Positions 44,436 through 64,000 of a stretch of 64,000 nucleotides of DNA are shown here, one piece after another. How positions within the stretch are numbered: position 1 is the first letter of the stretch; every line of letters starts with the position of its first letter. The stretch is from Streptomyces rubradiris (GTDB lineage: Bacteria; Actinomycetota; Actinomycetes; Streptomycetales; Streptomycetaceae), in assembly GCF_016860525.1 (NCBI RefSeq), contig NZ_BNEA01000001.1:434001-498000 (forward strand). Reading direction: 5' to 3'. The notes beneath the pieces were generated by a model that was not told the origin of the DNA, made no database searches, and was given only the letters and a program-made list of their open reading frames with translations. The translations under genes and the position numbers were made by a program.

Positions 44436-45323
44436 TCACGCCGGGTGGTCGCGGATCAGTTTGCGGATCGGGGTCTCCACGATCTCGATCGCGCCGGCCC
44501 GCTCGACCAGGGAGCTCACCACACCGGCGACCTCGGGGGCGGCGCAGACTCCCTGGAGGACCACCAGCCCTGAGGCGGCGCCGGTGTCGAGGCGCCACCA
44601 GCGCGGCGGCAGCAGGGGCTCGGCGTGGGCCCAGCGGTCCACCGGCAGGACGATGGTCAGCAGCCGGTGCAGGGGGCCGGCGTACGCGGCGCGCAGCAGG
44701 GTGGCGAGGGTGCGGATCGTCGCCCGGGTGGTCCGGTCGGCCCAGGCGGAGGGGTTGGCGACGAGGTTCACCCCGCACCGTCTGACCGTGTCCAGCACCC
44801 GGAGGTTGTTCTGCCGCAGCGAGGAGCCGGTCTCCACCACCTCCACCACCGCGTCGGCGAGGTCGGGGATCTTGGCCTCCGTGGTCCCGTGCGAGTGCAG
44901 GACCGCGGCCCGTACGCCCGAGCGCCGGAAGTACTCCCGGGCCAGGGCCGGGTACTCCGTCGCCACCCGCACCCCGTCCGCCAGGTCGGCCACCGTTCGC
45001 GCCGGGTGGTCCTCGGGCACCGCCAGCACCACCCGCCACCCCGAGCGGGTGGACTTGGAGTAGTCGAGGGTGTCCACCACCTCGACCTTCGCGCCCGTCT
45101 CGGCGACCCAGTCGGCGCCGGTGAGCCCGATGTCGCAGGTGCCGCCCGCCACCACCCCGGGGATCTCCCGCGGCTTGTAGAAGACCACCCGGTCGACGGC
45201 CGGGTGGCCGACGGTCGCCCGGTAGGCGCGCGGCGCGTGTCTGCTCACGGGCAGGTCGGCGGCGGCGAGGAGTTCCAGCGTCGGCGCTTCCAGGGAACCG
45301 GTGGGGAGCGCGAGAGAGACCAT
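44436..45323 (-). CDS. HisG-like ATP phosphoribosyltransferase (PenA/CofA type)
   Basis: 295 residues. The long-form HisG pattern: CDIGLTGADWVAETG (about 63-77), PRPP loop EVVETGSSLRQNNL (161-174) and a C-terminal regulatory-type domain. HisG joins ATP and PRPP in histidine synthesis, but this copy has no his neighbours. It is the last gene of an operon with SDR and SAICAR-synthetase-like genes, the order and content of penA-penB-penC for pentostatin and the matching coformycin genes. There the HisG homologue starts the 1,3-diazepine nucleoside. I infer the same role here; the sequence alone could not separate it from HisG. Confidence 0.88.
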   Translation of the reverse strand: MVSLALPTGSLEAPTLELLAAADLPVSRHAPRAYRATVGHPAVDRVVFYKPREIPGVVAGGTCDIGLTGADWVAETGAKVEVVDTLDYSKSTRSGWRVVLAVPEDHPARTVADLADGVRVATEYPALAREYFRRSGVRAAVLHSHGTTEAKIPDLADAVVEVVETGSSLRQNNLRVLDTVRRCGVNLVANPSAWADRTTRATIRTLATLLRAAYAGPLHRLLTIVLPVDRWAHAEPLLPPRWWRLDTGAASGLVVLQGVCAAPEVAGVVSSLVERAGAIEIVETPIRKLIRDHPA

Positions 45324-45433
45324 GTCTTCACCCCGGGCGTGTAAGCGGTCTGCGGGCGTGCGTTCCGGGAACAGGGCGGTGCGTTAGCGTCCGCGCCGTC
45401 GGCCGGGTGCGGGATGGGCGGGTGCCGTCGGCC

Positions 45434-46141
45434 TCAGACGTGCAGCAGCCGGTCGATGCCGGTCACCGGGGGCGCGGGGAGCCTGGCCGGGCGGATCTCC
45501 AGCTCTCCGACGACCACGTCGCGCGGCCAGCCGTCGATCACGGCCGCGACGCAGTCGCCGACCGACTCCGTGCTCATCTTGTACGGCGCTTCGTCCCCGT
45601 CGAGATTGGCGATGGCGCCGGGGGAGATCAGGCAGGCGCGGACGCCGTTCCCGCGCTCCTCCAGCAGCAGGGTCTCCACCAGCGCCTTCAGGGCCGCCTT
45701 GGTCGCGCTGTAGGCGGCCCCGCCCTCGAAGAAACGGGTCGCCGCGTGGCTGCCCATCGCGACGAACAGCCCGCCGCTCGCGCGCAGCGCCGGCAGGGTG
45801 TGCCGGATCAGGTGGAACACCGACGTCAGGTTGATCGCGACGAGCCGGTCCCAGTCCTCCGCGGGCAGGCCGGCCAGCGGGGCGAAGGCCCGGTCGACGG
45901 CGTTGGCGACACACACGTCCAGCCGCCCGGCGCCGGCGACCGCCTCGGTGACGCACTCGGCGATCCGCCGCGGGTCGGCCAGGTCGCAGCGCAGCTCGCC
46001 GAGCCAGTCCTCGCCGCTCGGCGTGCGGTTCAGCGACCGGATGCGGTAACCGCGCCCGTGCAGGGCGGCGGCGACGGCCCTGCCGGTGCCCCGGTTGCTG
46101 CCGGTCACCAGCGCCACGGGACGCTCCGCCTCAGAGGGCAT
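45434..46141 (-). CDS. Short-chain dehydrogenase (PenB-like)
   Basis: 235 residues from ATG 46141. NAD(P) motif TGSNRGTG (13-20), catalytic Ser131 (AMGSHAA), Tyr144 and Lys148 (AYSATKAA). The start overlaps the end of the SAICAR-synthetase-like gene by 11 bp. In pentostatin biosynthesis PenB reduces the 8-keto precursor to the 8R-hydroxyl in the last step; the same position and partners here suggest the same reaction. Confidence 0.87.
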   Translation of the reverse strand: MPSEAERPVALVTGSNRGTGRAVAAALHGRGYRIRSLNRTPSGEDWLGELRCDLADPRRIAECVTEAVAGAGRLDVCVANAVDRAFAPLAGLPAEDWDRLVAINLTSVFHLIRHTLPALRASGGLFVAMGSHAATRFFEGGAAYSATKAALKALVETLLLEERGNGVRACLISPGAIANLDGDEAPYKMSTESVGDCVAAVIDGWPRDVVVGELEIRPARLPAPPVTGIDRLLHV

Positions 46142-46868
46142 CGAAGGCCCGCTTCCACTGGTGCACGATCTCGGCGCCCGGCACGCCGGCCCGGAACAGG
46201 TCCTTGTCGAGGGGCGTGCCGTCCGCGTGCCGCAGCCGCATGCAGTCCTGGGAGACCTCCGAGATCAGGCACAGCTCACCGTCGGCGCCGGTGCCGAAGA
46301 TGAGGCAGAAGTCCCACACCCGCAAGGGGGCGAGCCAGTCGCGCAGCACGTCGTTGACGACGAGCGCCTGGTCCCGCATGGCCTCGACCGGCAGGTTGAG
46401 CGCCCGCAGGTAGTCCTCGCCGATGGGCTGGTCCTCCGGGTCCACCCGGTAGTCGAACTTCACGACCGGGCGGGGCAGGGGCCGGCCGTCCGGGAACAGT
46501 CCGGGGTACTTGCGGGTGGTGGAGCCGTTCGCCACGTTCTTGACGATGACCTCGAACGGCGGCGCGGGGCGGTACTCCGCCAGGTACCGGGTCCCGCCGA
46601 CCCGGGCGCGGAAGGCGCAGCGCACGCCGGCCTCGGTGAGCCGGGCGGCGGCACGTTCGTAGAAGTCCAGGCGCAACGGCCCGGTCTCGTCGACGATTTC
46701 GTCCCGCGCGTAGGTGAAGCTGCGCAGGCTCGGGATGAGTTCGACCAGGCAGAGGTCGTCGGGCAGCAGCCACAGGCGCTTGCTGCGGCCGGTGATGTCG
46801 GGCGGCTTCGTCTCCGCCAGTCGCGTCAACTGCTCGGTGTCGTACGGGCCGAGGGGGCCGGTGCTCAT
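46131..46868 (-). CDS. SAICAR-synthetase-like enzyme (PenC-like)
   Basis: 245 residues from ATG 46868 with GGGAGG upstream. PurC fold: KRLWLLPDDLCLVELIPSLR, FEVIVKNVANGSTTRKYPGL, VVKFDYRVDPEDQPI and CLISEVSQDCMRLRHADG. The last segment reads SQDCMR where PurC has a conserved SPDxxR, and the ITGRSKRLW N-terminus keeps the lysine. True PurC joins CAIR and aspartate; in pentostatin clusters the PenC homologue acts on a different intermediate. A housekeeping purC would not sit between SDR and halogenase-like genes. Confidence 0.88.
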   Translation of the reverse strand: MSTGPLGPYDTEQLTRLAETKPPDITGRSKRLWLLPDDLCLVELIPSLRSFTYARDEIVDETGPLRLDFYERAAARLTEAGVRCAFRARVGGTRYLAEYRPAPPFEVIVKNVANGSTTRKYPGLFPDGRPLPRPVVKFDYRVDPEDQPIGEDYLRALNLPVEAMRDQALVVNDVLRDWLAPLRVWDFCLIFGTGADGELCLISEVSQDCMRLRHADGTPLDKDLFRAGVPGAEIVHQWKRAFDAL

Positions 46869-46935: not shown

Positions 46936-47862
46936 TCAGGGGTTGGTGGTGCTGCCCAGCCCCGCGAACCTGTCGGCGATGAAGTCGGCCCAGGTGGAGT
47001 CCAGGACGGTCAGGTGCCCGTCGGTGGTGATCCGCCACTGGCGGGCGTCGTGCGGCGGGTAGGCGAACAGCACGGCCGACAGCCGTTCGTAGCCCGGCCG
47101 GGTGTCCGGGCGGTGCACCCGGTGGGTGGAGGGGCGGAAGCGGCCGTCGGAGGCCGTGGCGAGCATCCTGCCGACGTTGCACAGCACGACGTCCGTGTGC
47201 GCGATCACCGGTTCGACCCAGGTGCCGTCGTGCAGGACGTACTGCAACCCCTGGTCGTTCGGCGGCAGTTGCAGGCCCAGCAGCTGGATGCCCGAGTGCT
47301 CGTGGGCGAGGACCTCGCGCCCGCCGGTGTCCCGGTAGCGGATGACCCGGAGGTTGGCCGCGTCCCGCGACAGTTCGAGCGGGGGCGCGTTCGGCGGCAG
47401 CATGCCGTGGATCACCTCGGCGAACAGCCGGACCAGGGTGAAGGCGGTGTCGAAGACACCGGTGGCCGCCTCACCGAACCCGGGGAAGGCGCGCAGCACC
47501 GCCGCGGCGCCCGGCGGACGGTCGGCGATCATGGCGCCGCTCACATGGATGAACTCCTTCGGATCGGCAACGCCGGCCGCCAGGCGCGGCACCTCCGACA
47601 GGTAGGGGAAGAACCCGTGGGTGCCGCCGCTGGAGATCTGGGGCACCCGCTCGTAGGCGTAGTCGGACAGGCGGGGTGCGGCCGAGTCGCAGGCTTCGGA
47701 GAAACCGCGGGTCAGCTCTTCGACGCGGGCGCCGATGCCCGGTACCTCGACGGCCATGAAACCCCAGTCGGTGAGCTGGGTTCTGATTTCCCCGGCCGCG
47801 GACCGCATGTCCGCTTCCGTATTTCCGGTGCTTATCGAAGGGATACGGCCGCTGAGCTTCAT
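46936..47862 (-). CDS. 2OG-Fe(II) enzyme with HxG motif (candidate nucleotide halogenase)
   Basis: 308 residues from ATG 47862. Overall like the isopenicillin-N-synthase family: N-terminal DIOX_N region, LRVIRYRDTGG, GLQYVLHDGTWV, distal histidine STHRVH (His247) and the 2OG-binding RLS (Arg260, Ser262). Where the family has HxD, this protein reads EHSGIQLLG: His189-Ser190-Gly191. Loss of that carboxylate opens a site for chloride in 2OG-dependent halogenases. In the 2'-chloropentostatin cluster AdeV is such a halogenase acting on dAMP. This is the first gene of the operon with penCBA-like genes. Caution: an HTD at 222-224 could be argued as an alternative motif but falls in the wrong strand. 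Confidence 0.85.
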   Translation of the reverse strand: MKLSGRIPSISTGNTEADMRSAAGEIRTQLTDWGFMAVEVPGIGARVEELTRGFSEACDSAAPRLSDYAYERVPQISSGGTHGFFPYLSEVPRLAAGVADPKEFIHVSGAMIADRPPGAAAVLRAFPGFGEAATGVFDTAFTLVRLFAEVIHGMLPPNAPPLELSRDAANLRVIRYRDTGGREVLAHEHSGIQLLGLQLPPNDQGLQYVLHDGTWVEPVIAHTDVVLCNVGRMLATASDGRFRPSTHRVHRPDTRPGYERLSAVLFAYPPHDARQWRITTDGHLTVLDSTWADFIADRFAGLGSTTNP

Positions 47863-47961: not shown

Positions 47962-48062
47962 GGAGTCGTCTTCCGGTGATCACCGCCTGTTCGCCGTTGG
48001 CCGGATCGGCACCGTCGGCGGGCCTTCCGGGCAGCGACAACCGGCCTGATGCGGCGGCGTAC

Positions 48063-48091
48063 TTCCGCCTCGTCCGGCCATCGATTACGTT
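48063..48091 (+). promoter_or_regulatory. Candidate promoter of the acyl-CoA dehydrogenase operon
   Basis: TTCCGC (48063-48068), 17 bp, TACGTT (48086-48091). Weak -35. It would face away from the pen-like operon promoter, sharing one 270-bp control region. Confidence 0.3.
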
Positions 48092-48129
48092 GCTGGCACG
48101 AATTGCCGCGGACGGCGGGAGTGGTTGCC

Positions 48130-49248
48130 GTGACCCACCCGTTCAGTGACGATCACGAGCAGTTGCGCGCAGCGGTACGCCGTTTTCTCGCCGATAAATC
48201 TCCGGAAACCGAGGTCCGGCGTCTGATGGAGCAGACGGAGGGCTTCGACCGGGCCGTGTGGCGGCAGATGGCGGAACAACTGGAACTGATGGCTCTGATC
48301 ATTCCGGGAGAATACGGCGGGGCCGGTCATTCGTATGCCGAATTGAGCGTGGTGCTGGACGAGATGGGCCGGGCGCTGCTGTGCGCGCCGTACTTCGCGA
48401 CCGTGGCGCTGGCGGCCAATCTGCTGCTCACCTCGCGCGACGAGCCGGCCAAGGAGGAGTATCTGCCCGGCATCGCGAGCGGCCGTACCATCGCCACGGT
48501 CGCGCTCGCCGAACGGCAGGGGGACTGGGGCGAGAGCGGCATCACGCTGGAGGCCACCCGCACGCCGGACGGGATGTGGCGGCTGTCGGGAGAGAAGCAC
48601 TACGTCCTGGACGGTCATGTCGCCGACCTGGTGCTCGTAGTGGCCAGGACGAGGGCGGGCGTGTCGCTGTTCGCCGTGGGGAAGGACGCCACCGGCCTCA
48701 CCGCCACCCCGGTCGCCACCCTGGACCCGACCCGCAAGCTCGCCCGGCTCTCCTTCGACCGGGTCCGGGCCCGCCCGGTCGGCGCCGACGGCGAGGGCTG
48801 GCCCGCGGTGGCCCGGATGCTGGACCTGGCCGCCGTGGCGCTGGCGGCCGAACAGACCGGCGGGGCGCAGCGGGTGCTGGAGATGGCCGTCGCGTACGCC
48901 CGGCTCAGGGTGCAGTTCGGGCGGCCCATCGGCAGTTTCCAGGCCATCAAGCACAAGTGCGCCGACCTGCTGCTGGAGGTGGAGTCGGCGCGGGCGGCGG
49001 CCTACCACGCCGGCTGGGCGGTGGCCGAGGACGACGACGAGGTGCCCGTCCTGGCGAGCCTGGCCAAGTCCTGCTGTTCCGAGGCGTACTTCCACGCCGC
49101 GGCGGAGAACATCCAGATCCACGGGGGCATCGGCTACACCTGGGAGCACCCGGCCCATCTCTACTTCCGGCGGGCCAAGAGCAGCGAACTGCTCTTCGGT
49201 GACGCCGCCCACCACCGCGAGCTGCTGGCTCGGCGGATCGGAGTCTGA
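48130..49248 (+). CDS. Acyl-CoA dehydrogenase, subunit 1
   Basis: 372 residues from GTG 48130 with GGGAG 8 bp upstream. Acyl-CoA dehydrogenase N-terminal helices, GYARLRVQFGRPIGSFQAIK-type FAD region (YARLRVQFGRPIGSFQAIK) and ENIQIHGGIGYTWEHPAHLY at the C-terminus. It is followed 19 bp later by a second, divergent acyl-CoA dehydrogenase gene, the arrangement of heteromeric alpha2beta2 enzymes (as in mycobacterial FadE pairs). In this cluster it could oxidise a CoA-bound ring or chain precursor of the nucleobase. Confidence 0.88.
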   Translation: MTHPFSDDHEQLRAAVRRFLADKSPETEVRRLMEQTEGFDRAVWRQMAEQLELMALIIPGEYGGAGHSYAELSVVLDEMGRALLCAPYFATVALAANLLLTSRDEPAKEEYLPGIASGRTIATVALAERQGDWGESGITLEATRTPDGMWRLSGEKHYVLDGHVADLVLVVARTRAGVSLFAVGKDATGLTATPVATLDPTRKLARLSFDRVRARPVGADGEGWPAVARMLDLAAVALAAEQTGGAQRVLEMAVAYARLRVQFGRPIGSFQAIKHKCADLLLEVESARAAAYHAGWAVAEDDDEVPVLASLAKSCCSEAYFHAAAENIQIHGGIGYTWEHPAHLYFRRAKSSELLFGDAAHHRELLARRIGV

Positions 49249-49267
49249 GCACCGACCGGAGGAGACG

Positions 49268-50545
49268 TTGGAAGCAGCCCCGGGCACGCCCGCGTTCCCG
49301 CACCCGCCCCGCACCGGGTCGTTCCGCCGCCGGGTGCGGGCCTGGATATCGGCCAGCGTCCCGCCCGGCCTCACGGCGGACGGCCACCCGTCGGCATACG
49401 GCGACACCGAGGAGGCCCCGGGCGCACGGGCCGCGCACGGCGAGATCGGCGCGGCGGCGTACGCGGAGTGGGAGCGCAGGCTGCTCGGCGCGGGCCTGGT
49501 GTGTCCCGCCTGGCCGCGGCGGTACGGCGGGGCCGGGCTCGGTGTGCCCGAGGTGCTGATGCTGGAGGAGGAGTGTGCGCGCGCCGGTGTGCCGAGGATC
49601 GGCCGGGGGACCGGTGAACTGGTCGTCGGGCCCGTCCTGTTGGCCCACGGCACCGAGGAGCAGCGGGCCCGGCTGCTGCCCGGCATCCGGTCCGGCCGGG
49701 ACACGTACTGCCAGGCGTACTCCGAGCCGTCCCACGGCTCCGACCTCGCCTCCGTGGAGACCCGGGGCACGGTGACCGGCGACGAGATCCTGCTCCGTGG
49801 CCGCAAGGCGTGGGTGCGCGGTGCCCGCCGAAGCAGTACGGCACTGGTGCTGTGCCGGACGGATCCGGCCGCGGACCGGCACCGGGGCCTGTCGTGCGTG
49901 GTGGTGCGGCTCGACGAGGGCAACGGCGTCCGGGTGCGTCCGGTCCGGTCGGCGGACGGGTCGGCGGACCTGTGCGAGGTGGAGTTCGCCGGGGCCCGCG
50001 CTGCGTTGCGTGATGTGATCGGCGGGCCGGGCGGCGGATGGCCGGTGGTGATGACCGCCCTGGCACACCAGCGGGCCGGCCGCGCGGCGGCGGAACTCAC
50101 CGGTTACGAGGCCGCGTTCCGGGACCTCCTCAGGCAGGCGCAGAAGGCAGGGAGAACCCGGGACCCGCTGGTCAGGGGCCAGTTGGCGGAGGCGTACACG
50201 CGGCTGACGCTGCTGCGCCGGGTGGTGGCCGATCCGCCGGCGTCCGGCGGACCGGGTGCCGGGGCGGCCGTGGCCGGGCTGATGCGGGCCGAGTACCGCC
50301 GCCGGTTCGGTGAGATCGCCCTCGCGGTGACCGGCGCGTCCGGCCTGCTCGGCGCGGGTCCCGGGGAAGGGGCCGACGACCCGGCGGTCCGCCTGCGGCG
50401 GCTGTTCCTGGCCGGCCGGGGGGACACGATCGGCGACGGTACCGGCGAGGTCCTGCGGGACATCATCGCCGAACGCCTCCTGGGGCTGCCGAAGGAGCGC
50501 TCCCCCGCCGGGCCCGGCGGCGAAGTCCCGGCTGGCCGAAGGTGA
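49268..50545 (+). CDS. Acyl-CoA dehydrogenase, subunit 2
   Basis: 425 residues from TTG 49268 (GGAGGAG just upstream); the start is the least certain part. RRYGGAGLGVPEVLMLEEEC, QAYSEPSHGSDLASVETR (the FAD/substrate segment, YSEP where most have FTEP) and GDGTGEVLRDIIAERLLG at the C-terminus. Together with the preceding gene it probably forms one heteromeric enzyme. The SPSHGSD variant suggests an unusual substrate pocket. Confidence 0.85.
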   Translation: MEAAPGTPAFPHPPRTGSFRRRVRAWISASVPPGLTADGHPSAYGDTEEAPGARAAHGEIGAAAYAEWERRLLGAGLVCPAWPRRYGGAGLGVPEVLMLEEECARAGVPRIGRGTGELVVGPVLLAHGTEEQRARLLPGIRSGRDTYCQAYSEPSHGSDLASVETRGTVTGDEILLRGRKAWVRGARRSSTALVLCRTDPAADRHRGLSCVVVRLDEGNGVRVRPVRSADGSADLCEVEFAGARAALRDVIGGPGGGWPVVMTALAHQRAGRAAAELTGYEAAFRDLLRQAQKAGRTRDPLVRGQLAEAYTRLTLLRRVVADPPASGGPGAGAAVAGLMRAEYRRRFGEIALAVTGASGLLGAGPGEGADDPAVRLRRLFLAGRGDTIGDGTGEVLRDIIAERLLGLPKERSPAGPGGEVPAGRR

Positions 50546-50587: not shown

Positions 50588-50593
50588 TAGGAT
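50588..50593 (+). promoter_or_regulatory. -10 TAGGAT of the Nudix gene
   Basis: TAGGAT ends 7 bp before ATG 50601; no ribosome site is present, so a leaderless transcript is likely. Confidence 0.35.
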
Positions 50594-50600
50594 GCCGCGC

Positions 50601-51155
50601 ATGGCCACAGCCCCTCACGCGGTCCTCGATCTCCTTGACCGCTACGAACCGAAGAGCACCGCCGAACGCGCGGACGTGGAGCGGGTGCGCGCCCTCGTCG
50701 CGTCGGGCGACCCGTGGCGGCGGTCCACCCCGCTGCACGTCACCGGGTCCGCGCTGATCGTGCACCAGGACAGCGGCCGGGTCCTGCTGCGCTGGCACCA
50801 GCGCCACGAGTCCTGGCTGCTGGTCGGCGGCCACGCCGACCCGGAGGAGGACGACCCGCTCGCCATCGCCCTGCGGGAGGGGCGGGAGGAGACGGGACTG
50901 GCCGACCTCGTGCCCTGGCCGGACGCCGGGGTCCGGCACCTGGTGATCGTGCCGGTGCCGGCCAACTCCCGGGAGGCGGCGCACGAACACGCCGACATCC
51001 GCTTCGTCCTGGCCACCCGCACCCCCGAGGCGGTCCGCCCGGAGAACCCGCAGGCGCCGCTGCGCTGGCTGACGCCGCGGGAGGCACGCCGGGTGATCAC
51101 CGAGGAGAACATCCAGGAGACCCTGTCCCGCGTGGAGCCACTGCTCGCGGGCTGA
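50601..51155 (+). CDS. Nudix hydrolase
   Basis: 184 residues from ATG 50601. The Nudix box is GGHADPEEDDPLAIALREGR followed by EETGL. It lies between the acyl-CoA dehydrogenase genes and the cyclohydrolase-like gene. In nucleoside antibiotic clusters such enzymes remove phosphates from a late nucleotide intermediate; a housekeeping role is equally possible. Confidence 0.9.
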   Translation: MATAPHAVLDLLDRYEPKSTAERADVERVRALVASGDPWRRSTPLHVTGSALIVHQDSGRVLLRWHQRHESWLLVGGHADPEEDDPLAIALREGREETGLADLVPWPDAGVRHLVIVPVPANSREAAHEHADIRFVLATRTPEAVRPENPQAPLRWLTPREARRVITEENIQETLSRVEPLLAG

Positions 51156-51173: not shown

Positions 51174-51776
51174 ATGTACGCGGTACTGTCAGTGACGGAC
51201 AAGACGGGCATCACGGAACTGGGGGCCGGTCTGGGCCGTCTGGGCCTGCGGCTGGCGGCCACCGCCGGCACCGCCGGGCTGCTGCGGGAGGCCGGGCTGG
51301 ACGCCACGGTGATCGGCGACCTGTCCGGGGTGCCGGAGCTGATGGGCGGCCGGGTCCGGGCGTTTCACCCGTCCGTCTTCGGCGGGCTGCTGTACCGCCG
51401 GGGGCATCCGGCCGACGAGGCGGACGTCCGCCGTCACGGGGTGCCCCGCATCGACGTACTGGTGTGCAACTTCCGCGACCTGCCGCCGGACGACACCTCC
51501 GAGGGCGTGCTGGACTCCATCGACGTGGGCGGCCCCGCCATGGTGCGGGCCGCCGCCAAGAACCACGCCGACGTGCTCCCCGTCGTGGACCCGGCGGACT
51601 ACGGCGCCGTCCTCGCCGCCCTGACCGCCGCCGGCGGCCGGGCCGGCGCCACCGACCCCGGCTTCCGGCGCCGGCTGGCCGTGAAGGCGTTCGCGCGTAC
51701 GGAGGCGTACGACCGGTCGATCCACCGGTTCCTCGCCCGGCTCGCGGAGACCGGAGCGGGGCAGCCCCGGACCTGA
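51174..51776 (+). CDS. Stand-alone IMP-cyclohydrolase-like protein (PurH N-terminal domain)
   Basis: 200 residues. It matches only the first domain of PurH: AVLSVTDKTGITELGAGLGR, ATAGTAGLLREAG, PELMGGRVRAFHPSVFGGLL and IDVLVCNFRDLP, then GGPAMVRAAAKNHADVLPVV. The AICAR transformylase domain is absent, so it can close a pyrimidine ring on a formylated amino-carboxamide but cannot add the formyl group. Formycin biosynthesis uses a PurH homologue for the analogous step on a pyrazole C-nucleotide. GGAGGG lies upstream of ATG 51174. Confidence 0.9.
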   Translation: MYAVLSVTDKTGITELGAGLGRLGLRLAATAGTAGLLREAGLDATVIGDLSGVPELMGGRVRAFHPSVFGGLLYRRGHPADEADVRRHGVPRIDVLVCNFRDLPPDDTSEGVLDSIDVGGPAMVRAAAKNHADVLPVVDPADYGAVLAALTAAGGRAGATDPGFRRRLAVKAFARTEAYDRSIHRFLARLAETGAGQPRT

Positions 51777-51825: not shown

Positions 51826-52383
51826 ATGGACATCCGGGCCCTGCACGCGCAAGCCCTGCTCACGACGGACCGGTTCGTCGCCGCCGTCGGCGCCGGCCGG
51901 TGGGAGGCACCCACCCCGTGCGAGCGGTGGAACGTACGGCAGGTCGTGAACCACCTCGTCGCCGGGAACCTGTGGGTGCGCGAGCTGGGCGGCGGCCGGA
52001 CGATCGAGGACGTCGGCACGGAACTCGACGGCGATCTGCTGGGGGACGACCCGGCCGCCGCGCACGCGGCCTCCGTCGCGGCGGCGACCGAGGCGTTCGC
52101 GGCCGGGGACGCCATGGACCGCCTGTGGCCGCTGTCCTACGGCGAGCGGCCGGGCCGGGTGTACGCCAGGCAGCGGTTCGTGGACGTGCTGATCCACGGC
52201 TGGGACATCGGCCGCGCGCTGGAGCCGGACCCGCGGCTGCCGGCCGCTCTGGTCGACGCCTGCCTGGAACTCTTCGACAGCCGCCCGCGGATGTTCGCCC
52301 AGTGGGGGTTCGCCGAGGTGGCGGTGGAGCCGGGCGCGGACCCGCAGACCCGGCTGCTCGCCCGCGCCGGCCGCCGCCCCTGA
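51826..52383 (+). CDS. DinB/MDMPI-type (TIGR03086-like) protein
   Basis: 185 residues. TPCERWNVRQVVNHLVAGNL is the first metal-ligand helix and FVDVLIHGWDIGRALEPDPR carries the later histidine and aspartate; ALHAQALLTTDRFVAAVGAG precedes. The family includes mycothiol-dependent isomerases and many proteins of unknown role. In this setting it may be a mycothiol transferase for detoxification. Confidence 0.87.
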   Translation: MDIRALHAQALLTTDRFVAAVGAGRWEAPTPCERWNVRQVVNHLVAGNLWVRELGGGRTIEDVGTELDGDLLGDDPAAAHAASVAAATEAFAAGDAMDRLWPLSYGERPGRVYARQRFVDVLIHGWDIGRALEPDPRLPAALVDACLELFDSRPRMFAQWGFAEVAVEPGADPQTRLLARAGRRP

Positions 52384-57186: not shown

Positions 57187-58191
57187 TCAGGTCCATGCCG
57201 CACCCGCCCCGGGCTCGGTGCGGCGGGTGCCGGGTGCGAGGGCCGCCAGCCGGTCCAGTACCCGGTCCAGGTCCTGGGCGCCCCACACCCGGGTGCCGGT
57301 CCACAGCTCGCACAGCGACCGGTACATCTCGCCGACGAGTTCCACCACCTCGCGCGGGAGGGGGTCGGGGGCGGGCCAGGCCGAGCGGGGGCGGCCCTCC
57401 CGCACCCACTCCTCCACCCGGGACTGCAGGCCGGTGGCCGCGTAGTGGTCGCGCAGCACCTGCTTGTCGGCGTGGGCGCCGTCCAGCAGCAGCCGGGCCT
57501 CGTCGGGGGTGCCCGCGTGGTCGACCAGGATCAGCCGGCCCCGCGCGTCCCGGCCGTACTCGACCTTGCCGTCGGCGAGCACCAGCCCGACGCGGCGGGC
57601 GTGCGCGGCCACCACCTCGGCCACCAGCCGGGTACGGTCCTCCAGTTCGGTCTGCTGCTCCGCGTCCAGCCCGCCGATCGCCGCGGCTTCGTCCCGGCGC
57701 ACGAAGCGGTCGATCTCCTCCAGCTTGGTGGTGTACTCGATGACCGGGCGCTCCAGTACGGTGCCGGGGGCGGGGGCATGGGTGAGGCCGATGTCGGCCG
57801 GTTCCAGCCGGCCCAGTCTCAGGCGGCGCAGCACCGAGGAGCCTTCGGGGAGCATGGTGCGGAAGATGACCTGGAGCGGGACGAGGTGGTTGACGTCTCC
57901 CGGCCCGAGCGGCCGTTCCCTCGGGTCGACGACCCTCAGCAGGTCGAACTCCAGCCGGTCGGGCGGGTGGAAGGCGCGGAAGTGGCTGGGCACGCCCGCC
58001 TCGGCCAGCAGGCCGAAGTTGAACGCCGCGATGCGGCAGCACGCCTCGCCCTTGCCCGGGACGGAGTCGGGCATCTTTCCGTAGTGGAAGACCGAGTAGT
58101 CGTCGGTGAACCGGAAACTGCCCACTCCGGTGCGCCCGTCGGCCGGTGCCCGCCGGACGTCGAGATCCTTGGTCGAGAACCTCTTCGGCAC
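57187..58191 (-). CDS. Second SAICAR-synthetase-like enzyme (ForC-like)
   Basis: 334 residues from GTG 58191 with GAGGAGG upstream. FTDDYSVFHYGKMPDSVPGK and GEACCRIAAFNFGLLAEAGV are the ATP-binding start of PurC, in the longer form; VIEYTTKLEEIDRF and LADGKVEYGRDARGRLILVD follow. It is unlike the short PenC-like protein at 46131. It sits directly downstream of the C-nucleoside-synthase-like gene. In formycin biosynthesis ForC adds aspartate to the carboxylate of the C-nucleotide, so the amide nitrogen of the future pyrimidine ring comes this way. Confidence 0.88.
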   Translation of the reverse strand: MPKRFSTKDLDVRRAPADGRTGVGSFRFTDDYSVFHYGKMPDSVPGKGEACCRIAAFNFGLLAEAGVPSHFRAFHPPDRLEFDLLRVVDPRERPLGPGDVNHLVPLQVIFRTMLPEGSSVLRRLRLGRLEPADIGLTHAPAPGTVLERPVIEYTTKLEEIDRFVRRDEAAAIGGLDAEQQTELEDRTRLVAEVVAAHARRVGLVLADGKVEYGRDARGRLILVDHAGTPDEARLLLDGAHADKQVLRDHYAATGLQSRVEEWVREGRPRSAWPAPDPLPREVVELVGEMYRSLCELWTGTRVWGAQDLDRVLDRLAALAPGTRRTEPGAGAAWT

Positions 58192-58225: not shown

Positions 58226-59281
58226 TCAGTCGACGACTGTCCGGCCGTCGTCGTCGAGCACCGGGATCCAGTCGACGTCGGCGGGGACGTTGCGGGCGCC
58301 GCTGAACCAGAACTCGCGGACGACGCCCGCTTCCCGCAGCCCGGACAGCCACCGGACGGCGGCCCCGGGGCGCCGGGTGAAGGCGTAGCACATCGGTCCC
58401 TCGGAGCTCATCGCGACGGCGTCGATCTCCTGCCCCCGGCGCGCCTCCTCCAGCAGGTACTTGACCTGGGAGGACTGCATGTCGATCTGCTTCTGCTTGA
58501 AGTGGCTCTCGTAGGTCAGGAAGTTCACCGCGCGGCAGAAGGCCGGGTAGTCGGCCTCCAGGACCGAGGTGGCCAGGTTCATCAGGACCGCGTGGGCGGT
58601 GCGGCGGGCCTCCTCGGCGGGGATGGGCAGCGTCCGGGCGAAGAACTGCCGTTCGGTCTCGCCGTGCATCTGGTGGCCGTTGGGGATGATCACGAGGACC
58701 GGCCAGGTGGGGAAGGGCGCCGAGATCAGCACGGGGGGCCGTTTCCCGCCGCCCGCGAACCGGGTCGGGACCAGGTAGCGCTTCGGGTCCTCGGCGAAGT
58801 CGTCGGGGTTGAGGTGGCCGCCGTCGACCAGGAAGCCGCCTCTTTCTATGAGGTTGGGGCTGGCGCCCGAGGTGCCGGCCCGGCCGGCGGTCCGGGCTAT
58901 CTCCGCGGTGCCGAGCGGGAGTCCGGCGAACTGGGCGTAGGCGCGGCCCACGGCGACGGCCGTGGTGGTGCCGGAGCCGAAGCCGGTGTGCGGCGGGAGG
59001 CCCTTGCGGATCACCACCTTGGCGGGCGGGCCGCCCCACGCCTCGCGCAGGCGGTCCAGCAGGGTACCGACGGCCTCCAGGTGGGCCGAGCCGTTCTCGT
59101 CCGCCTCGACCGCGTTCTCGTGGTGCGGCAGGACGACGGCCTCCAGGCCGGGCGAGCGCAGCGCCATGGAGGCCATGCCGTTGCGGCGGCCGGTCTCGCC
59201 GTTCAGGTCGATCAGTGTGAAGCTGACGCGGCATCCGGTGCGGACGCGCACGCCCCATTCCTGCGACGGGGCCTCGGACAT
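58226..59281 (-). CDS. Beta-RFAP-synthase-like C-nucleoside synthase (ForT/PyfQ type)
   Basis: 351 residues from ATG 59281 with GGGGGAG upstream. FTLIDLNGETGRRNGMASMA, PPHTGFGSGTTTAVAVGRAY, ASPNLIERGGFLVDGGH and FPTWPVLVIIPNG are the signatures of beta-ribofuranosylaminobenzene 5'-phosphate synthase, a GHMP-kinase-fold enzyme of methanopterin synthesis that makes a C-C bond between PRPP and an aromatic acid with loss of CO2. In actinomycetes the homologues ForT and PyfQ make the C-glycosidic bond of formycin and pyrazofurin. Streptomyces makes no methanopterin, so a C-nucleoside role is most likely. The ring acid used is unknown. Confidence 0.9.
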   Translation of the reverse strand: MSEAPSQEWGVRVRTGCRVSFTLIDLNGETGRRNGMASMALRSPGLEAVVLPHHENAVEADENGSAHLEAVGTLLDRLREAWGGPPAKVVIRKGLPPHTGFGSGTTTAVAVGRAYAQFAGLPLGTAEIARTAGRAGTSGASPNLIERGGFLVDGGHLNPDDFAEDPKRYLVPTRFAGGGKRPPVLISAPFPTWPVLVIIPNGHQMHGETERQFFARTLPIPAEEARRTAHAVLMNLATSVLEADYPAFCRAVNFLTYESHFKQKQIDMQSSQVKYLLEEARRGQEIDAVAMSSEGPMCYAFTRRPGAAVRWLSGLREAGVVREFWFSGARNVPADVDWIPVLDDDGRTVVD

Positions 59282-59300: not shown

Positions 59301-60212
59301 TCAGTGGACCGCGTCGGTCTGCGCGTCCTCGACCACCAGGTCCTCGTACCGGGCCCCCGGCTCGATCAGGCCCCAGCGCCGCATCCAGGCGTAGGCCTTC
59401 TCGAACTCCAGGCGGGTGTACGGCTCCGGGGGTACGTAGCGCAGCCGCGGCAGGTGGAAGTCGTCGGGTGTGACCTCGCCCGCGAAGACCTCGGGCAGCG
59501 AGTCGATCAGGTAGTGCAGGTAGGGGCGCTTGTCCCGGCCGAGCGCGGCGACCGCGCGGTTGACCGCCCGGTTGCAGGCCGCGTAGACGGCGCGGTCGAA
59601 GTCCGGTGCCACCAGCTCCAGTCCCGCGTAGTGGGTCTCGATGACCTTCTGGAAGCCCTGCTTCTCGGCCAGGGTGATCCACGGTTCCGACAGGGCGACG
59701 GCCGCGGCCTCACCGGACTGGACGGCGCGGTAGCCGTCCAGGGTGTGGTAGCCCACCGTCTTGATCTCGTCGGCCTCCAGGAAGCCCTCCAGCATCTGGA
59801 TCGCCGCGTAGTGGTTGCCGTTGTGGAAGCTGACCGCCACGGGCGCGTTCGCCAGGGTCTGGGGATAGATGTACTTCGAACCGGGCGCCGCCATGAGGGC
59901 CATCACCGCGACCGACGAGCGTTTCCCGATGATCCTCGCTCCCCGGCGGCTGTCGTGGGCCCGCCGGATCTGCCCCCACTCGCAGGCGCGGTACAGGTCG
60001 ACCTGCCCCTCCTCGAAGGGCACGTGGTTGCGGATGGAGTCGACCAGCTCGTGGTCCGCCACCGGTTCGGTCAGCTTCTGCTCCGCGCGGTTCTGGACGA
60101 ATTCCACCGCGACGTTTTCCTCGGCGAAATAGCCGAGTTCGTCGGCGACCAGCCAGGGCAGCGCGAAGACGGCGGACGGGCCGACACCTTCGGTGCGCAC
60201 GGTAACCGTCAT
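59301..60212 (-). CDS. Cytosolic NMT1/THI5-like protein
   Basis: 303 residues from ATG 60212 with GAGAGGGG upstream. FALPWLVADELGYFAEENVA is the typical start of NMT1/SsuA-type binding proteins, but there is no signal peptide or lipobox, so it is cytosolic. Within the pocket region are YRACEWGQIRRAH, ARIIGKRSS and SFHNGNHYAAIQML. Enzymes with this fold include THI5, which builds a pyrimidine from its own histidine and PLP, and MqnA/MqnD of the futalosine pathway. The CCCFC motif of THI5 is absent. It may make or hold the ring precursor of the C-nucleoside. Confidence 0.8.
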   Translation of the reverse strand: MTVTVRTEGVGPSAVFALPWLVADELGYFAEENVAVEFVQNRAEQKLTEPVADHELVDSIRNHVPFEEGQVDLYRACEWGQIRRAHDSRRGARIIGKRSSVAVMALMAAPGSKYIYPQTLANAPVAVSFHNGNHYAAIQMLEGFLEADEIKTVGYHTLDGYRAVQSGEAAAVALSEPWITLAEKQGFQKVIETHYAGLELVAPDFDRAVYAACNRAVNRAVAALGRDKRPYLHYLIDSLPEVFAGEVTPDDFHLPRLRYVPPEPYTRLEFEKAYAWMRRWGLIEPGARYEDLVVEDAQTDAVH

Positions 60213-60383: not shown

Positions 60384-61379
60384 TCAGGGTCTTCGGGCGG
60401 GCTCGGGAGGCACGGGAGCCCGCGCCTGCTCCACCGTGAGGACCGCCCGCGCCCTGGCCACGCCGAGCGCGAGACACTCCGGAGGGCTCAGGTCCGACAG
60501 CAGCCCGGCCAGGAAGCCGCCGGCGAAGGCGTCGCCGGCGCCGACCGCGCTGGTGACCGGCGTGCCGGGCGCGGCGACGCGGTGCCGGCCGCCCGGCCCG
60601 TGGACGAGCGCGCCGCGGGCGCCGAGCGTGACCACGCCGAGCATGCCGTGCCGGGCCAGCACCGCGGCCGCCGCCTCGGCGTCGTCGGTGCCGGTGAGCG
60701 CGGTGGCCTCGGCCTCGTTGCCGAGGACGACGTCGACTCCGGCGGCCAGCAGCTCGGCGAAGCGCCGGCGGCGGGTGCGGACGAGTGCGGGGTCGGAGAG
60801 GGCGAGCATGCGCCGGGCGCCGAGCGCGACGGCGCGCCGCAGGGCGTCGCGGGCCGCCGCACAGCCCTCCTCGGAGGCCAGCAGGTACCCCTCGACCAGC
60901 ATCCCGTGGCAGGAGCCGGTGTCGGCCAGGCACGCCTCCACCGCGTCCGGCAGCATCCGCAGCCGCCGGCGCTCGCCCTGCCAGATGAGGAAGGCCCGTT
61001 CGCCGTCGGGGAGCAGCAGCACCAGGCAGCGCCCGGTGCGGCCCCGGCCGGGCGTGCGGACCGGCACCGACACTCCGCGCCCGGCCAGGTCGTCCCGGAC
61101 GGCCTGGGCGAGCGGGTCGTCCATGCACGCCGTGGCGAGCGCCGCCCGGCCGCCGTCGGCCACGAAGGCGACGCAGGTGTTGGCGGCGCTGCCGCCCGCC
61201 GACACCACGGCCCGCGCGCCCTCCCACTCCAGCCGGGCGACGACCTCCGCCAGCGCGTCGAACTCCAAGAAGTCCGCGGTGCCCGGTTCGACACCGAGCC
61301 GGGCGCACACCTCCGGCGGGACGGCGACCACCAGGTCCGCGAGGGCGTCCCCGAGCGCGACGAGACTCGCGGGCGCCAT
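60384..61379 (-). CDS. PfkB-family nucleoside/sugar kinase
   Basis: 331 residues from ATG 61379. Substrate motif VVSAGGSAANTCVAF and the ATP/catalytic motif SAVGAGDAFAGGFLAG with the catalytic aspartate. The N-terminal VALGDALADLVV and the NEAEATALTG segment fit the adenosine/ribokinase group. It may phosphorylate the nucleoside product or a ribose precursor, for example for self-protection or salvage. Its ATGA overlaps the stop of a small gene upstream. Confidence 0.92.
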   Translation of the reverse strand: MAPASLVALGDALADLVVAVPPEVCARLGVEPGTADFLEFDALAEVVARLEWEGARAVVSAGGSAANTCVAFVADGGRAALATACMDDPLAQAVRDDLAGRGVSVPVRTPGRGRTGRCLVLLLPDGERAFLIWQGERRRLRMLPDAVEACLADTGSCHGMLVEGYLLASEEGCAAARDALRRAVALGARRMLALSDPALVRTRRRRFAELLAAGVDVVLGNEAEATALTGTDDAEAAAAVLARHGMLGVVTLGARGALVHGPGGRHRVAAPGTPVTSAVGAGDAFAGGFLAGLLSDLSPPECLALGVARARAVLTVEQARAPVPPEPARRP

Positions 61380-61567
61380 CAGCAGCGCTCCGCCAGGCCG
61401 GTGAGGCGGTCCACCGGCGCCGCCCGCTCCTCGTGGTCGCCCTTGGCCGGTGCGAGCGATTCATGACCGGGCAGGCCGAGGAATTCCTCGATCTTCCGCT
61501 CGGAGCAGATGGTGTTCTCCCGTAAGGGGGCGTCCCCGTCCGCGAGAAGAAAGTGATCGATTCTCAA
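61379..61567 (-). CDS. Small protein coupled to the kinase (62 aa)
   Basis: A TTG at 61567 with GGGAGA 5 bp upstream opens a 62-residue frame whose TGA overlaps the kinase ATG. The sequence begins RIDHFLLADGDAPLRENTIC and has no family I recognise. It follows LLM gene 2 by 45 bp, so it lies inside the operon. Coupling and ribosome site support a real gene; the TTG start and lack of homology keep the confidence moderate. Confidence 0.55.
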   Translation of the reverse strand: MRIDHFLLADGDAPLRENTICSERKIEEFLGLPGHESLAPAKGDHEERAAPVDRLTGLAERC

Positions 61568-61612: not shown

Positions 61613-62662
61613 TTACAGCAGTTTCGGGATGACCTCCCGGGTCAGCAGCAGGAAAGAGGCGTGGCTCAACGGCGCGCACAGCAGGTAGTGCAGGCCGATC
61701 TCCTCCTTGAGGGCCCTGATGTGTTCGGCGACCCGGGCGGGGCTGCCGTGGATCACCACGTCGTCCGCGTACCGCTCGGCCCGGTCCCGGCTGTCGTGTC
61801 CCGCCGCTCGCGCCCCGGCCGGGCGGATGCTGCGGGAGTAGTCGCGCCGGGAGGGGTCGCTCAACGAGCCGAGGGTCCAGCGCGCGCCGCGCAGCGCGAT
61901 CTCCCGGGCCTCCTCGTCGGTCGGGGCGACCGCGATCAGCCGGGCCATGGGGATGACCCGGCCGTCGACCGGATGACCGGCGTCGGCCAGGCCCTGCCGG
62001 TAGGCCCGGTACTTGGACCCGATGGCGGCGTGGGTGGAGTGCGGGTCCATCAGGATCGAGTAGCCGGCACCGGCCGCCCAGGCGACCGCCTCCGGTGAGG
62101 AGGCGGCCAGCCACACCGGCGGGTGCGGCCGTTGCAAGGGTTTGGGCAGCACCTCGATGTCCTCGAAGGAGTGGAACCGGCCCCGGTGGGTGAGGCGTTC
62201 CTGCCGCCAGGCCCCGAGGACGACCTCCACGTTCTCGCGGAACAGCGCGTAGCTGCGTTCGAGGTCGAGCCCGAACACCCGGAACTCGGTGGGGTCGTTG
62301 CCGCGGCCCGCGCCCCAGTTGACCCGCCCGCCGGACACCACGTCCAGCAGCGCGATCTCCTCGGCGAGCCGCAGCGGGTGGTGCATCGCGGCCAGCGAGA
62401 CGGCGGTGCCGATGCGCAGCCGTTCGGTGCGGGCCGCGACCAGCGCGCCCATCATGCTCACCGACGGGGAGACCGAGTAGGTGGTGAAGTGGTGTTCGGC
62501 GAGCCACACCGCGTCGTAGACCCCCGACCGCTCCATGATGTCGATCCGTTCCAGCGCGCGGCTGTAGACGGCCTCCGGTGGTATCCGGCGGCCGGGCCAG
62601 GAGAAGAACTGCAGTACGCCGAAGCCGAGCCGTCCGTGGTCCGCTGTCGTCATGCCAGTCAC
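61613..62662 (-). CDS. Luciferase-like flavin monooxygenase 2
   Basis: 349 residues from GTG 62662, which overlaps the stop of the ThDP enzyme gene (GTGA); ATG 62653 gives 346. VYDAVWLAEHHFTTYSVSPS, MHHPLRLAEEIALLDVVSGG and NWGAGRGNDPTEFRVFGLDL are the luciferase-family motifs. It is only distantly like the first LLM protein (54414-55508), so two different flavin oxygenation steps are likely in the pathway. Confidence 0.9.
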   Translation of the reverse strand: MTGMTTADHGRLGFGVLQFFSWPGRRIPPEAVYSRALERIDIMERSGVYDAVWLAEHHFTTYSVSPSVSMMGALVAARTERLRIGTAVSLAAMHHPLRLAEEIALLDVVSGGRVNWGAGRGNDPTEFRVFGLDLERSYALFRENVEVVLGAWRQERLTHRGRFHSFEDIEVLPKPLQRPHPPVWLAASSPEAVAWAAGAGYSILMDPHSTHAAIGSKYRAYRQGLADAGHPVDGRVIPMARLIAVAPTDEEAREIALRGARWTLGSLSDPSRRDYSRSIRPAGARAAGHDSRDRAERYADDVVIHGSPARVAEHIRALKEEIGLHYLLCAPLSHASFLLLTREVIPKLL

Positions 62663-64000
62663 CCCAGTTTCGCCGAGCGCCGGTAGGCCACCTCGGGGTC
62701 GGTGAGTACGTTGACGAGGTACGGCTCCCCCGCCGCGAAGGCCCGGCGCAGCGCCGGGGCGATCCGCCGCGGGTCGGTGACGGTCTCGCCCGCCCCGCCG
62801 AGCGCCCGGACCACCTGGTCGTAGCGGCTGTCCGGCCTCAGGTCGGCCGCGACGTCCGTGCCGTAGAGCGCGCGCATGGGGTGCTTCTCCAGCCCCCAGC
62901 CGCCGTTGTTGCCGACGACCATCACCACCGGCAGCCGGTGCCTCACCAGGGTGTCGACGTCGCCGGCCGAGAAGCCGAAGGCGCCGTCCCCGAGGAGGAG
63001 CACCACCTGCCGGTCCGGGTGGCGCAGCCGGGCGGCGATCGCGTAGCCGATGCCGTTGCCGAGGCAGCCGAACGGGCCCGGGTCGAGCCAGTGGCCAGGC
63101 AGGTGGGAGTCCAGGAGCCGGCCCGCGTACGACACGAAGTCGCCGCCGTCCCCGATGACTACGGCGTCGTGGTCGAGCTGGGCGATCAGTTCCCCGAGGA
63201 CGCGGGCGGGGTGGATGGGCTCACCGGGGTGTTCCAGTTCCGGCCGTTCGGCCGCGCGCAGGGCGCGTTCGCGCGCGCGCAGCCGCCGTATCCACTCCTC
63301 GTGGTCCGCCCGGGGCCCGGACCAGGCCGCCATGCCGTCGAGGACGTGCCGCAGGTCGCCGGCCGGGGCGGCGGCCGTGGGCACGTGCGTGGCGCGCAGC
63401 GCGGGATGGTCCACGGCGTGGACGACGCGCGCGTCGCCGAACCGGCCGAAGGAGAGCCGGAAGTCCAGGGGCGTGCCGGCCACCACGACGACGTCGGCCT
63501 CCTTCAGCGCGTCCCGTGACCGGCTGAACGCCAGTTCGTGCCGGGCGGGCAGACAGCCGCGGCCCTGCCCGTTGGCGAACGTCGGCACGCGCAGCGACTC
63601 GGCGCAGTGGCGCAGCGCCTCCCAGGCCCCGCCCCACCAGACGTCGCCGCCGGCCACCAGGACCGGGCGGCTCGCGGTGGCCAGGAGTTCCGCGGCCTTG
63701 GCGACCTCGTCCGGGTCGGGGGCCGGCGGGACGACGGGGAGCGGAGGGTTCAGGATGGCGCTCGCCCTGCGGTGCATCACGTCGAGGGGGATGTCGAGGA
63801 ACACCGGGCCGCGGTGCGGGGTGGCGGCGGTGGCCGTGAGCGCCCGCAGCTCACCGGGGACGGCATCGGTGCGGGTGACGGTCCGGGCGTCCTTGGTCAC
63901 CGGCGTGACCAGGGGGATGTGGTCGAACTCCTGCAAGGCACCGGAGCCCCAGCGTTTCCGTGCGGCCCGCCCGGCCAGCACCACGACGGGCGCGCCGTTG
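62659..64000 (-). CDS. ThDP-dependent enzyme, acetolactate-synthase-like (cut by window edge)
   Basis: The open frame enters from the right edge, so the first third (the PYR domain with the catalytic glutamate) is outside the window; about 447 residues remain. HRGPVFLDIPLDVMHRR, the central TPP_enzyme_M domain, and the C-terminal ThDP motif LLGDGAFGFSAGDVDTLVRH ... VVGNNGGWG are visible. Family members include acetolactate synthase, oxalyl-CoA and 2-hydroxyacyl-CoA lyase. Its stop overlaps the LLM start, so it is in the cluster operon. The operon continues beyond the window. Confidence 0.9.
   Translation of the reverse strand, partial: NGAPVVVLAGRAARKRWGSGALQEFDHIPLVTPVTKDARTVTRTDAVPGELRALTATAATPHRGPVFLDIPLDVMHRRASAILNPPLPVVPPAPDPDEVAKAAELLATASRPVLVAGGDVWWGGAWEALRHCAESLRVPTFANGQGRGCLPARHELAFSRSRDALKEADVVVVAGTPLDFRLSFGRFGDARVVHAVDHPALRATHVPTAAAPAGDLRHVLDGMAAWSGPRADHEEWIRRLRARERALRAAERPELEHPGEPIHPARVLGELIAQLDHDAVVIGDGGDFVSYAGRLLDSHLPGHWLDPGPFGCLGNGIGYAIAARLRHPDRQVVLLLGDGAFGFSAGDVDTLVRHRLPVVMVVGNNGGWGLEKHPMRALYGTDVAADLRPDSRYDQVVRALGGAGETVTDPRRIAPALRRAFAAGEPYLVNVLTDPEVAYRRSAKLG

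Follow-up and report, generated by a model that had tools for sequence, protein, structure and literature searches.

What would a Streptomyces strain make when predicted genes for an adenosine deaminase inhibitor lie directly beside predicted genes for a C-nucleoside: a known pair of compounds, or a new one? This question is raised by a stretch of 64,000 nucleotides of Streptomyces rubradiris (hereafter the window; bases 434001-498000 of contig C1 in a genome of 9.05 Mb, 100% complete and distributed in 22 contigs). Flanks were added to the window, genes were called by script and annotation was done via Pfam, NCBIfam and PDB. An earlier note on this DNA had claimed that it joins a coformycin/pentostatin-type cassette to a ForT-type C-nucleoside cluster, and the gene content bears out this junction. 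We consider it fairly probable, judging from sequence comparisons, that a predicted penA-penB-penC and AdaV-family cassette (left half) leads to 2'-chloropentostatin, which would protect an adenosine-like C-nucleoside (right half) whose base is likely not a pyrazole. The cluster was not found described in the open-licence PMC literature.

The left half is a contiguous row of genes on a single strand; for its HisG-like, short-chain dehydrogenase and SAICAR-synthetase-like members (44436-46868), this is what the earlier note had read (ORF, open reading frame; aa, amino acids; Fe/2OG, iron/2-oxoglutarate-dependent):

44436..45323, minus strand, PenA-type HisG-like phosphoribosyltransferase, 295 aa (PF01634, E 1.5e-38)
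45434..46117, minus strand, PenB-type short-chain dehydrogenase (PF00106, E 7e-31; ORF 45434-46141)
46131..46868, minus strand, PenC-type SAICAR-synthetase-like enzyme, 245 aa (PF01259, E 8e-18)
46936..47808, minus strand, AdaV-family Fe/2OG nucleotide halogenase with an HSG motif (AdaV structures 7w5s/7v57, E 1e-135)

A housekeeping origin of HisG, PurC and the PurH halves found in the cluster is ruled out, since separate copies lie elsewhere in the genome (HisG at C1:1010139, PurC at C15:4312068 and full-length PurH at C15:3251385). PenA is 36% identical to the HisG of the strain over 133 aa and penC has no tblastn match to its PurC at E 1e-3; the HisG-like, dehydrogenase and SAICAR-synthetase-like genes thus form a set that is distinct from the housekeeping copies. 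PenA is 74% identical to its counterpart in Streptomyces sp. DH37 and 56-57% to the penA genes adjoining ForT genes of the pyrazole clade (defined below) in loci L018 and L020; penB is 76% identical to that of DH37 and 74% to that of S. varsoviensis, and penC is 76% identical to PenC of Actinokineospora bangkokensis.

The best PDB matches of the halogenase are seven distinct AdaV sequences (E 1e-135 to 3e-134), and it is 82% identical to its counterpart in DH37, 73% in S. varsoviensis and 68% in A. bangkokensis. Six positions are reported to separate halogenases of deoxyadenosine monophosphate (dAMP) from those of deoxyguanosine monophosphate (N175, A272, Y273, I299, R302 and F303 of AdaV), Y273 and F303 being tied to substrate preference, and the identified dAMP halogenases include DI270, ADK38 and BJP25 (PMC11186838). 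The window protein has the dAMP letters at all six positions in a manual reading of its alignment to the AdaV structures (an offset of 10 reproduces all six AdaV letters), and its iron-site segment HEHSG is identical in three AdaV alignments. Both the HXG motif of Fe/2OG halogenases and dAMP-type residues are therefore present, and a hydroxylase was ruled out on the HSG motif. We take the prefixes ADK38 and BJP25 to designate S. varsoviensis and A. bangkokensis, respectively. At E 1e-40, the strain itself is the only one with a match among 392 sampled Streptomyces genomes (own included). The cassette is thus predicted to be of the 2'-chloropentostatin kind; the pentostatin-type assignment made earlier stands, whereas the AdaV-type halogenase shifts the predicted inhibitor from coformycin or plain pentostatin to a 2'-chloropentostatin-like one.

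The right half comprises five genes on the plus strand (acdA, acdB, nudix, IMP cyclohydrolase, TIGR03086) followed by ten on the minus strand, and further genes lie right of the window (LLM, luciferase-like monooxygenase; ThDP, thiamine diphosphate; MFS, major facilitator superfamily):

48226..49248, plus strand, acyl-CoA dehydrogenase acdA (ORF 48049-49248, so that the start may be upstream at 48049; kept in DH37 and S. varsoviensis)
49268..50545, plus strand, acyl-CoA dehydrogenase acdB (ORF 49199-50545; kept in DH37 and S. varsoviensis)
50601..51155, plus strand, NUDIX hydrolase (PF00293; ORF 50592-51155)
51174..51776, plus strand, stand-alone IMP cyclohydrolase domain, the N half of PurH (NF002049, E 4e-52 over residues 2-191)
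51826..52383, plus strand, TIGR03086 metal-binding (mycothiol-isomerase-like) protein (kept in loci L006, L007, L009 and L010)
52413..53684, minus strand, CoA-transferase family III (PF02515, E 3e-123; ORF 52413-53756)
53671..54414, minus strand, acetoacetate-decarboxylase-like protein (PF06314, 33.5 bits for a cut-off of 29.8)
54414..55508, minus strand, luciferase-like monooxygenase LLM1 (PF00296, E 1e-44)
55566..56819, minus strand, amidohydrolase, Xaa-Pro/Xaa-Arg dipeptidase-like (PF01979, E 1e-37; top PDB match 3mtw, E 1e-47)
57187..58191, minus strand, second SAICAR synthetase PurC2 (PF01259, E 1e-26)
58226..59281, minus strand, ForT-like C-glycosynthase of the beta-RFAP-synthase family (ForT structure 6yqq, E 1e-92)
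59301..60212, minus strand, cytosolic periplasmic-binding-fold (Thi5/SsuA/DszB-like) protein (model pLDDT 94.7)
60384..61379, minus strand, PfkB-family kinase (PF00294, E 7e-37)
61613..62653, minus strand, luciferase-like monooxygenase LLM2 (PF00296, E 1e-64)
62659..64000, minus strand, ThDP enzyme, the gene running to 64215 beyond the window (PF02775/02776/00205; NF004516, 771 bits, over cut-off)
65137-66417, right of window, acyl-CoA dehydrogenase
66768-68012, right of window, MFS protein
68477-69667, plus strand, right of window, stand-alone AICAR transformylase
69682-70896, right of window, PatB-like C-S lyase/aminotransferase

Gene calls and family scans confirmed the beta-RFAP-synthase-like gene, the second SAICAR-synthetase-like gene and the stand-alone cyclohydrolase domain listed by the earlier note, as well as the presence of its LLM, CoA-transferase, acyl-CoA dehydrogenase and ThDP genes; that list had overlooked the halogenase, the Thi5-fold protein and the stand-alone transformylase. 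PurC2 scores 170 bits against NF010566 and 139 bits against TIGR00081, both under the equivalog cut-offs, and this dedicated PurC paralogue adjoins ForT, one of the marks of a ForT-type C-nucleoside cluster.

The cyclohydrolase (PF02142 and the start of PF01808; 39% identical to the PurH of the strain) keeps its AAAKNH motif and the aspartate of IDVGG; its RVKTLHP segment has become RVRAFHP in the window, DH37 and S. varsoviensis, R-[VL]-K-T-L being retained in L011, L012, L013, L018, L020 and the strain's own PurH. The transformylase keeps its KH pair (MKHVSPAG) and has altered NPCG and NPHQ motifs. We assume that the K and D of the cyclohydrolase and the KH of the transformylase are the catalytic residues. 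At E 1e-45, the cyclohydrolase matches one of 391 sampled genomes of the order, namely its own; it is not unique to the window, since L011-L013, L018 and L020 have such a stand-alone domain as well.

The 50 loci designated by L numbers come from a profile search of genome contigs with an alignment of 24 ForT sequences, in which 23 of the 120 matches of a protein search (best 7998 candidates scored) were included; one gene table was made on 25 of these loci and another on 10. The residues Ser21, Thr138, Glu211, Lys263 and Gln266 of ForT (PRPP, i.e. phosphoribosyl pyrophosphate, binding or catalysis; PMC9832568) correspond to S20, T137, E210, K262 and Q265 of the window protein; across the 24 aligned sequences, S20 is almost invariant and the other four are fully so, and ForT Ser174 is replaced by Thr. 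A ForT tree was built from 34 rows (33 of the 50 loci and the window; the 17 others, mostly archaeal or on short contigs, were left out). The window and five relatives form one clade (99/97), outside a clade of nine rows (100/100) that includes S. resistomycificus, a listed formycin producer (PMC8724604), and A. bangkokensis, whose locus carries a cupin-MetRS gene; the name pyrazole clade that we give to these nine rows rests on these two members. The tree program warned that long branches meet at the root, where the 13 outgroup rows part from the other 21; the split between the window and the pyrazole clade is not affected.

Does the genome hold the genes that would begin a pyrazole ring? PF09334 (MetRS-like) and PF13434 (Lys-oxygenase) were searched in six genomes. 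The positive control, an S. resistomycificus-like genome, has a MetRS-like gene (209 bits) adjoining a Lys-oxygenase gene (332 bits) on its ForT contig (G348:C7:76094-78998). This hydrazine-forming pair was not found in the whole genome of the window strain (one full-length MetRS at 520 bits, other PF09334 matches at 53 bits or less), nor in that of S. varsoviensis (MetRS at 493 bits, others at 51 bits or less). The absence of N-N-bond enzymes, noted earlier for the window, therefore extends to the whole genome. Since the strain lacks the two known genes with which pyrazole formation starts in the closest compounds, the base is likely new. When the genes of L022 and L024 were compared by tblastn (E 1e-10) with window coordinates 40001-80000, only ForT, PurC2, nudix and pen/HisG-type genes matched; the PurB-like lyase ForB (L022:11080-12504, adenylosuccinate-lyase family) was among those without a match. 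With no hydrazine pair, a ForT outside the pyrazole clade and few shared genes, a pyrazole aglycone was set aside as the leading reading.

ForT genes this close to that of the window (79-89% identity) occur in five of the 50 loci (S. sp. DH37, S. lushanensis, S. sp. MnatMP-M17, S. varsoviensis and Actinosynnema sp. ALI-1.44), and a search of 392 sampled Streptomyces genomes gave five ForT matches, three of them strong (own, 85% and 45%) and two weak. The relatives with sufficiently long stretches have the gene order in common, some with extra genes. LLM1 is 83-88% and LLM2 71-80% identical in L006, L007, L009 and L010. AdaV is strong in two of the five relatives' genomes (82% and 73%) and PenC is found in two of the five; these are DH37 and S. 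varsoviensis, where both lie directly beside the cluster, so that the same adjacency and order of the left and right halves exist in three Streptomyces including the window strain. The recurrence of this gene order, with extra genes, in two other Streptomyces argues for an arrangement that is not due to chance. Among 17 further genomes with a ForT-family gene, A. bangkokensis alone has adaV at E 1e-30; there (L020/L087), penA-penB-penC, adaV (L087:12929-13900) and ForT lie within ~21 kb. The association of halogenase and ForT is thus not unique to the clade of the window, since A. bangkokensis has both together with pyrazole genes, and its genes predict a 2'-chloro inhibitor with a formycin-type partner.

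The route that we propose is inferred from homology. In the left half, chlorination of dAMP at C2' would fall to the AdaV-like enzyme and the coupling of the nucleotide with PRPP to PenA, after which PenC and PenB would finish the seven-membered diazepine of the deaminase inhibitor. In the right half, the acyl-CoA dehydrogenases, LLM oxygenases, ThDP enzyme, CoA transferase, decarboxylase-like protein and Thi5-fold protein would build an electron-rich amino-dicarboxylate five-membered ring without any N-N bond, perhaps a pyrrole. This ring would be linked to PRPP via carbon, with loss of CO2, by the ForT-like enzyme, after which PurC2 and the host PurB would give the carboxamide; closure of the pyrimidine ring by the stand-alone transformylase and cyclohydrolase would yield an IMP analogue. 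PurA (a cluster paralogue in the relatives, the host enzyme only here) and PurB would then lead to an AMP analogue, which would be dephosphorylated and exported by the MFS protein. An adenosine-like end product is favoured because a PurA paralogue adjoins purC2 in all four relatives with a stretch long enough (DH37, S. lushanensis, S. varsoviensis and Actinosynnema), where it lies between purC2 and the amidohydrolase. More tentatively, the right half could represent a C-nucleoside class without known biosynthesis, with an N-N-free purine-like base (for example a 9-deazaadenosine-type pyrrolopyrimidine), a Thi5-fold enzyme, ForT-like joining and a split PurH, guarded by a halogenated inhibitor in three Streptomyces.

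Several observations weigh against the pairing of a 2'-chloropentostatin with an adenosine-like C-nucleoside of non-pyrazole base. The aglycone chemistry is a guess. The strain has two strong Lys/Orn-oxygenase matches (418 and 377 bits), neither with a MetRS-like neighbour, and DH37, S. lushanensis and Actinosynnema carry a MetRS-like/Lys-oxygenase pair elsewhere, outside the examined ForT stretches; another N-N route in this strain is possible. S. lushanensis, MnatMP-M17 and Actinosynnema (AdaV match partial, 32%) carry ForT without adaV or penC, hence the two halves are separable, the absence in MnatMP-M17 being a weak argument because its genome appears to be a fragmented draft (1300 contigs). 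Furthermore, the window cluster lacks the PurA paralogue, the haloacid-dehalogenase-type (HAD) phosphatase found between LLM2 and pfkB in DH37 and S. varsoviensis, and the three molybdenum-hydroxylase subunits of xanthine-dehydrogenase (XDH) type found after the C-S lyase in the same two strains. Relics of some of the genes present in relatives were detected by tblastn:

61433..61564, minus strand, HAD phosphatase relic (45% over 44 aa, E 5e-5 in the 40-kb stretch)
64937-65101, right of window, weak ligase relic (36% over 55 aa)
~70937-71081, right of window, XDH large subunit relic in two frames (72-76% over 32 and 17 aa, E 4e-7 in the 40-kb stretch)

The gap between purC2 and the amidohydrolase holds no PurA relic (best 21 bits) and the genome has a single PurA, which rules out a paralogue hidden in the gap or elsewhere. 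The losses of the PurA paralogue, HAD and XDH genes, with the HAD and XDH relics and the weak ligase one, suggest that the C-nucleoside branch may be decaying or altered. Changes restricted to one lineage, counted between the window and DH37 with S. varsoviensis as outgroup, are in excess in the window for penA (36 to 15), the amidohydrolase (35 to 18), the ThDP enzyme (41 to 27) and the transformylase (30 to 18). The earlier claim that the strain makes both compounds is weakened by the missing PurA paralogue, HAD phosphatase and molybdenum hydroxylase, of which the last two survive as relics.

These losses, together with the HAD and XDH relics and the excess changes in the amidohydrolase, ThDP and transformylase genes, speak for an alternative in which only the left cassette works: 2'-chloropentostatin would be made while the C-nucleoside branch decays or halts at an inosine-like or carboxamide nucleoside. 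We regard this as unlikely. The 22 compared genes (of the 23 cluster genes from penA to the C-S lyase, the MFS gene being left out) have no internal stops, and their ratios of nonsynonymous to synonymous substitutions (dN/dS; NG86 method, saturating in part) are 0.14-0.55 against DH37, ForT being the lowest at 0.14 with no excess of changes in the window (9 to 14). Host PurA could serve in place of the paralogue, no HAD gene was called at that place in Actinosynnema either, and a retained deaminase inhibitor would make most sense with an adenosine-like partner.

It is less probable still that the strain makes a known pyrazole C-nucleoside, formycin or pyrazofurin, with hydrazine supplied by another N-N enzyme. 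The window does share ForT, PurC2, nudix (56-61% in L018, L019, L020, L024, L025 and L026) and pen-type genes with formycin-type clusters, A. bangkokensis pairs adaV with a pyrazole-type ForT cluster and three relatives hold the hydrazine pair elsewhere; against this stand the lack of the pair in both the window strain and S. varsoviensis, the unmatched remainder of the L022 and L024 genes and the position of ForT outside the pyrazole clade. An equally low probability is given to two gene sets that are chance neighbours and act separately, as the three of five close relatives with ForT and without adaV or penC (one a fragmented draft) would allow: the adjacency and order are conserved in three Streptomyces, the different ForT cluster of A. 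bangkokensis is also accompanied by penABC and adaV, and the combination of an inhibitor and the nucleoside that it protects is a described pattern (PMC8724604). A 2'-chloropentostatin paired with an adenosine-like, probably non-pyrazole C-nucleoside is therefore the reading that we retain.

This reading relates the locus to three known systems. Like the ade/ada cluster of Nonomuraea (Actinomadura) sp. ATCC 39365, which is devoted to 2'-chloropentostatin and 2'-amino-2'-deoxyadenosine, it has PenA/B/C-type genes and an AdaV halogenase, but their partner is a ForT-type C-nucleoside cluster instead of 2'-amino-2'-deoxyadenosine genes. Unlike that cluster and the Ade gene cluster family of Streptosporangiaceae, it shows no PriA-type gene (adeK) among its annotated genes: no HisA/PriA family was found among the Pfam matches of the scanned called genes in 41102-75544, where the short ORF 71314 has no family and ORF 71919 was left out. 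Homologues of adeV are reported in multiple Streptomyces biosynthetic gene clusters in passages of PMC13055916 that mention no C-nucleoside genes with them and that place the clusters by adeA; the present loci may be among these uncharacterised clusters.

The formycin/coformycin (S. kaniharaensis, Nocardia interforma) and pyrazofurin (S. candidus) clusters, compared here through L018-L022 and L024-L026 rather than through the named producer strains, likewise have nudix and pen-type genes at the same locus as a ForT-type C-glycosynthase and a PurC paralogue. The window differs by the lack of the hydrazine pair, a separate ForT clade, an added halogenase and, compared to the formycin cluster, the presence of both PurH halves; the formycin pathway reportedly depends on housekeeping PurH (2019 study). 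The A. bangkokensis locus resembles the window in its penABC, adaV, ForT and stand-alone cyclohydrolase genes and has a PurA paralogue; it differs by its ForT of the pyrazole clade and its cupin-MetRS gene. Coformycin-type cassettes next to ForT clusters have a precedent in the formycin and pyrazofurin clusters, whose pathways, both leading to pyrazoles, are the ForT-type ones covered by a 2022 review (PMC8724604). A new base is indicated by a cluster family that is rare and conserved, combines ForT with both PurH halves and, in this strain, lacks the hydrazine pair; adenosine-like C-nucleosides and deaminase inhibitors are antiviral and antitumour leads. The ForT-like, Thi5-fold, split PurH and halogenase genes can be tested by name. 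Moreover, the halogenase cassette accompanies ForT clusters both with and without pyrazole genes, two settings that are informative on the assembly of protector and protected pathways.

The Thi5-fold protein starts at the mature fold without a signal peptide, from a reading of the sequence and the model. It has no NCBIfam or Pfam match and no match in a PDB sequence search; its modelled fold matches Thi5 and also SsuA, TauA, DszB and MqnD. It is 9-14% identical to the Thi5 HMP synthase, DszB and SsuA, from which it differs by an invariant Cys and two His of its own (C77, H130 and H134, invariant in 35 rows), and no ABC transporter genes are among its annotated neighbours. It is likely an enzyme, a role that we infer, the fold being common to binding proteins and enzymes (Thi5, DszB, MqnD). 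Homologues (59-63%) are found in three proteobacterial ForT loci (L014-L016); none was seen in the formycin-type ForT loci or L011-L013 within the stretches examined. A ForT-type cluster on plasmid pANY103c of Aminobacter, a plant-associated alphaproteobacterium from Lotus (L083), also has a homologue, annotated 'ABC transporter substrate-binding protein', in the neighbourhood of ForT, PurC, full PurH, HAD, an XDH-family gene, an amidohydrolase and a TrpF-like gene. A Mesorhizobium plasmid match equals that of pANY103c (50%), and the 18 others among the matches listed (best 20 of 42) are at 28-32%.

Two other origins of the base were considered and set aside. A carrier-protein route to pyrrole found no support in L006, whose 68-aa protein matches no family (its counterpart in L010 is 67% alike). 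An anthranilate-derived base was set aside because no anthranilate synthase or salicylyl-CoA-hydroxylase-like gene was called in the L009 and L010 clusters and because the L006 anthranilate synthase finds no counterpart scoring over 26 bits at 40000-80000 in the window strain. Such a fused synthase lies within the ForT clusters of DH37 (L006:13619-15778; clade 3, over the NCBIfam cut-off) and S. lushanensis (L007:13616-15772; same Pfam domains), L006 also having a salicylyl-CoA-hydroxylase-like gene; a role in supply or resistance is possible.

Among the remaining features, the CoA-transferase comes nearest to an NCBIfam model of mesaconate type, without reaching its cut-off, penA has a GH43 xylosidase (42792-44303) as its left neighbour, and an Rfam scan of the window gave no match at gathering score. 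Further ForT loci in Lentzea kentuckyensis, Nocardia anaemiae and Roseospira (L011, L012 and L013) combine PurC with a stand-alone cyclohydrolase, L011 and L013 also carrying a transformylase, and L011 PurA-like, PurB-like, DegT aminotransferase and lactate-dehydrogenase-like genes, which suggests another uncharacterised C-nucleoside type.

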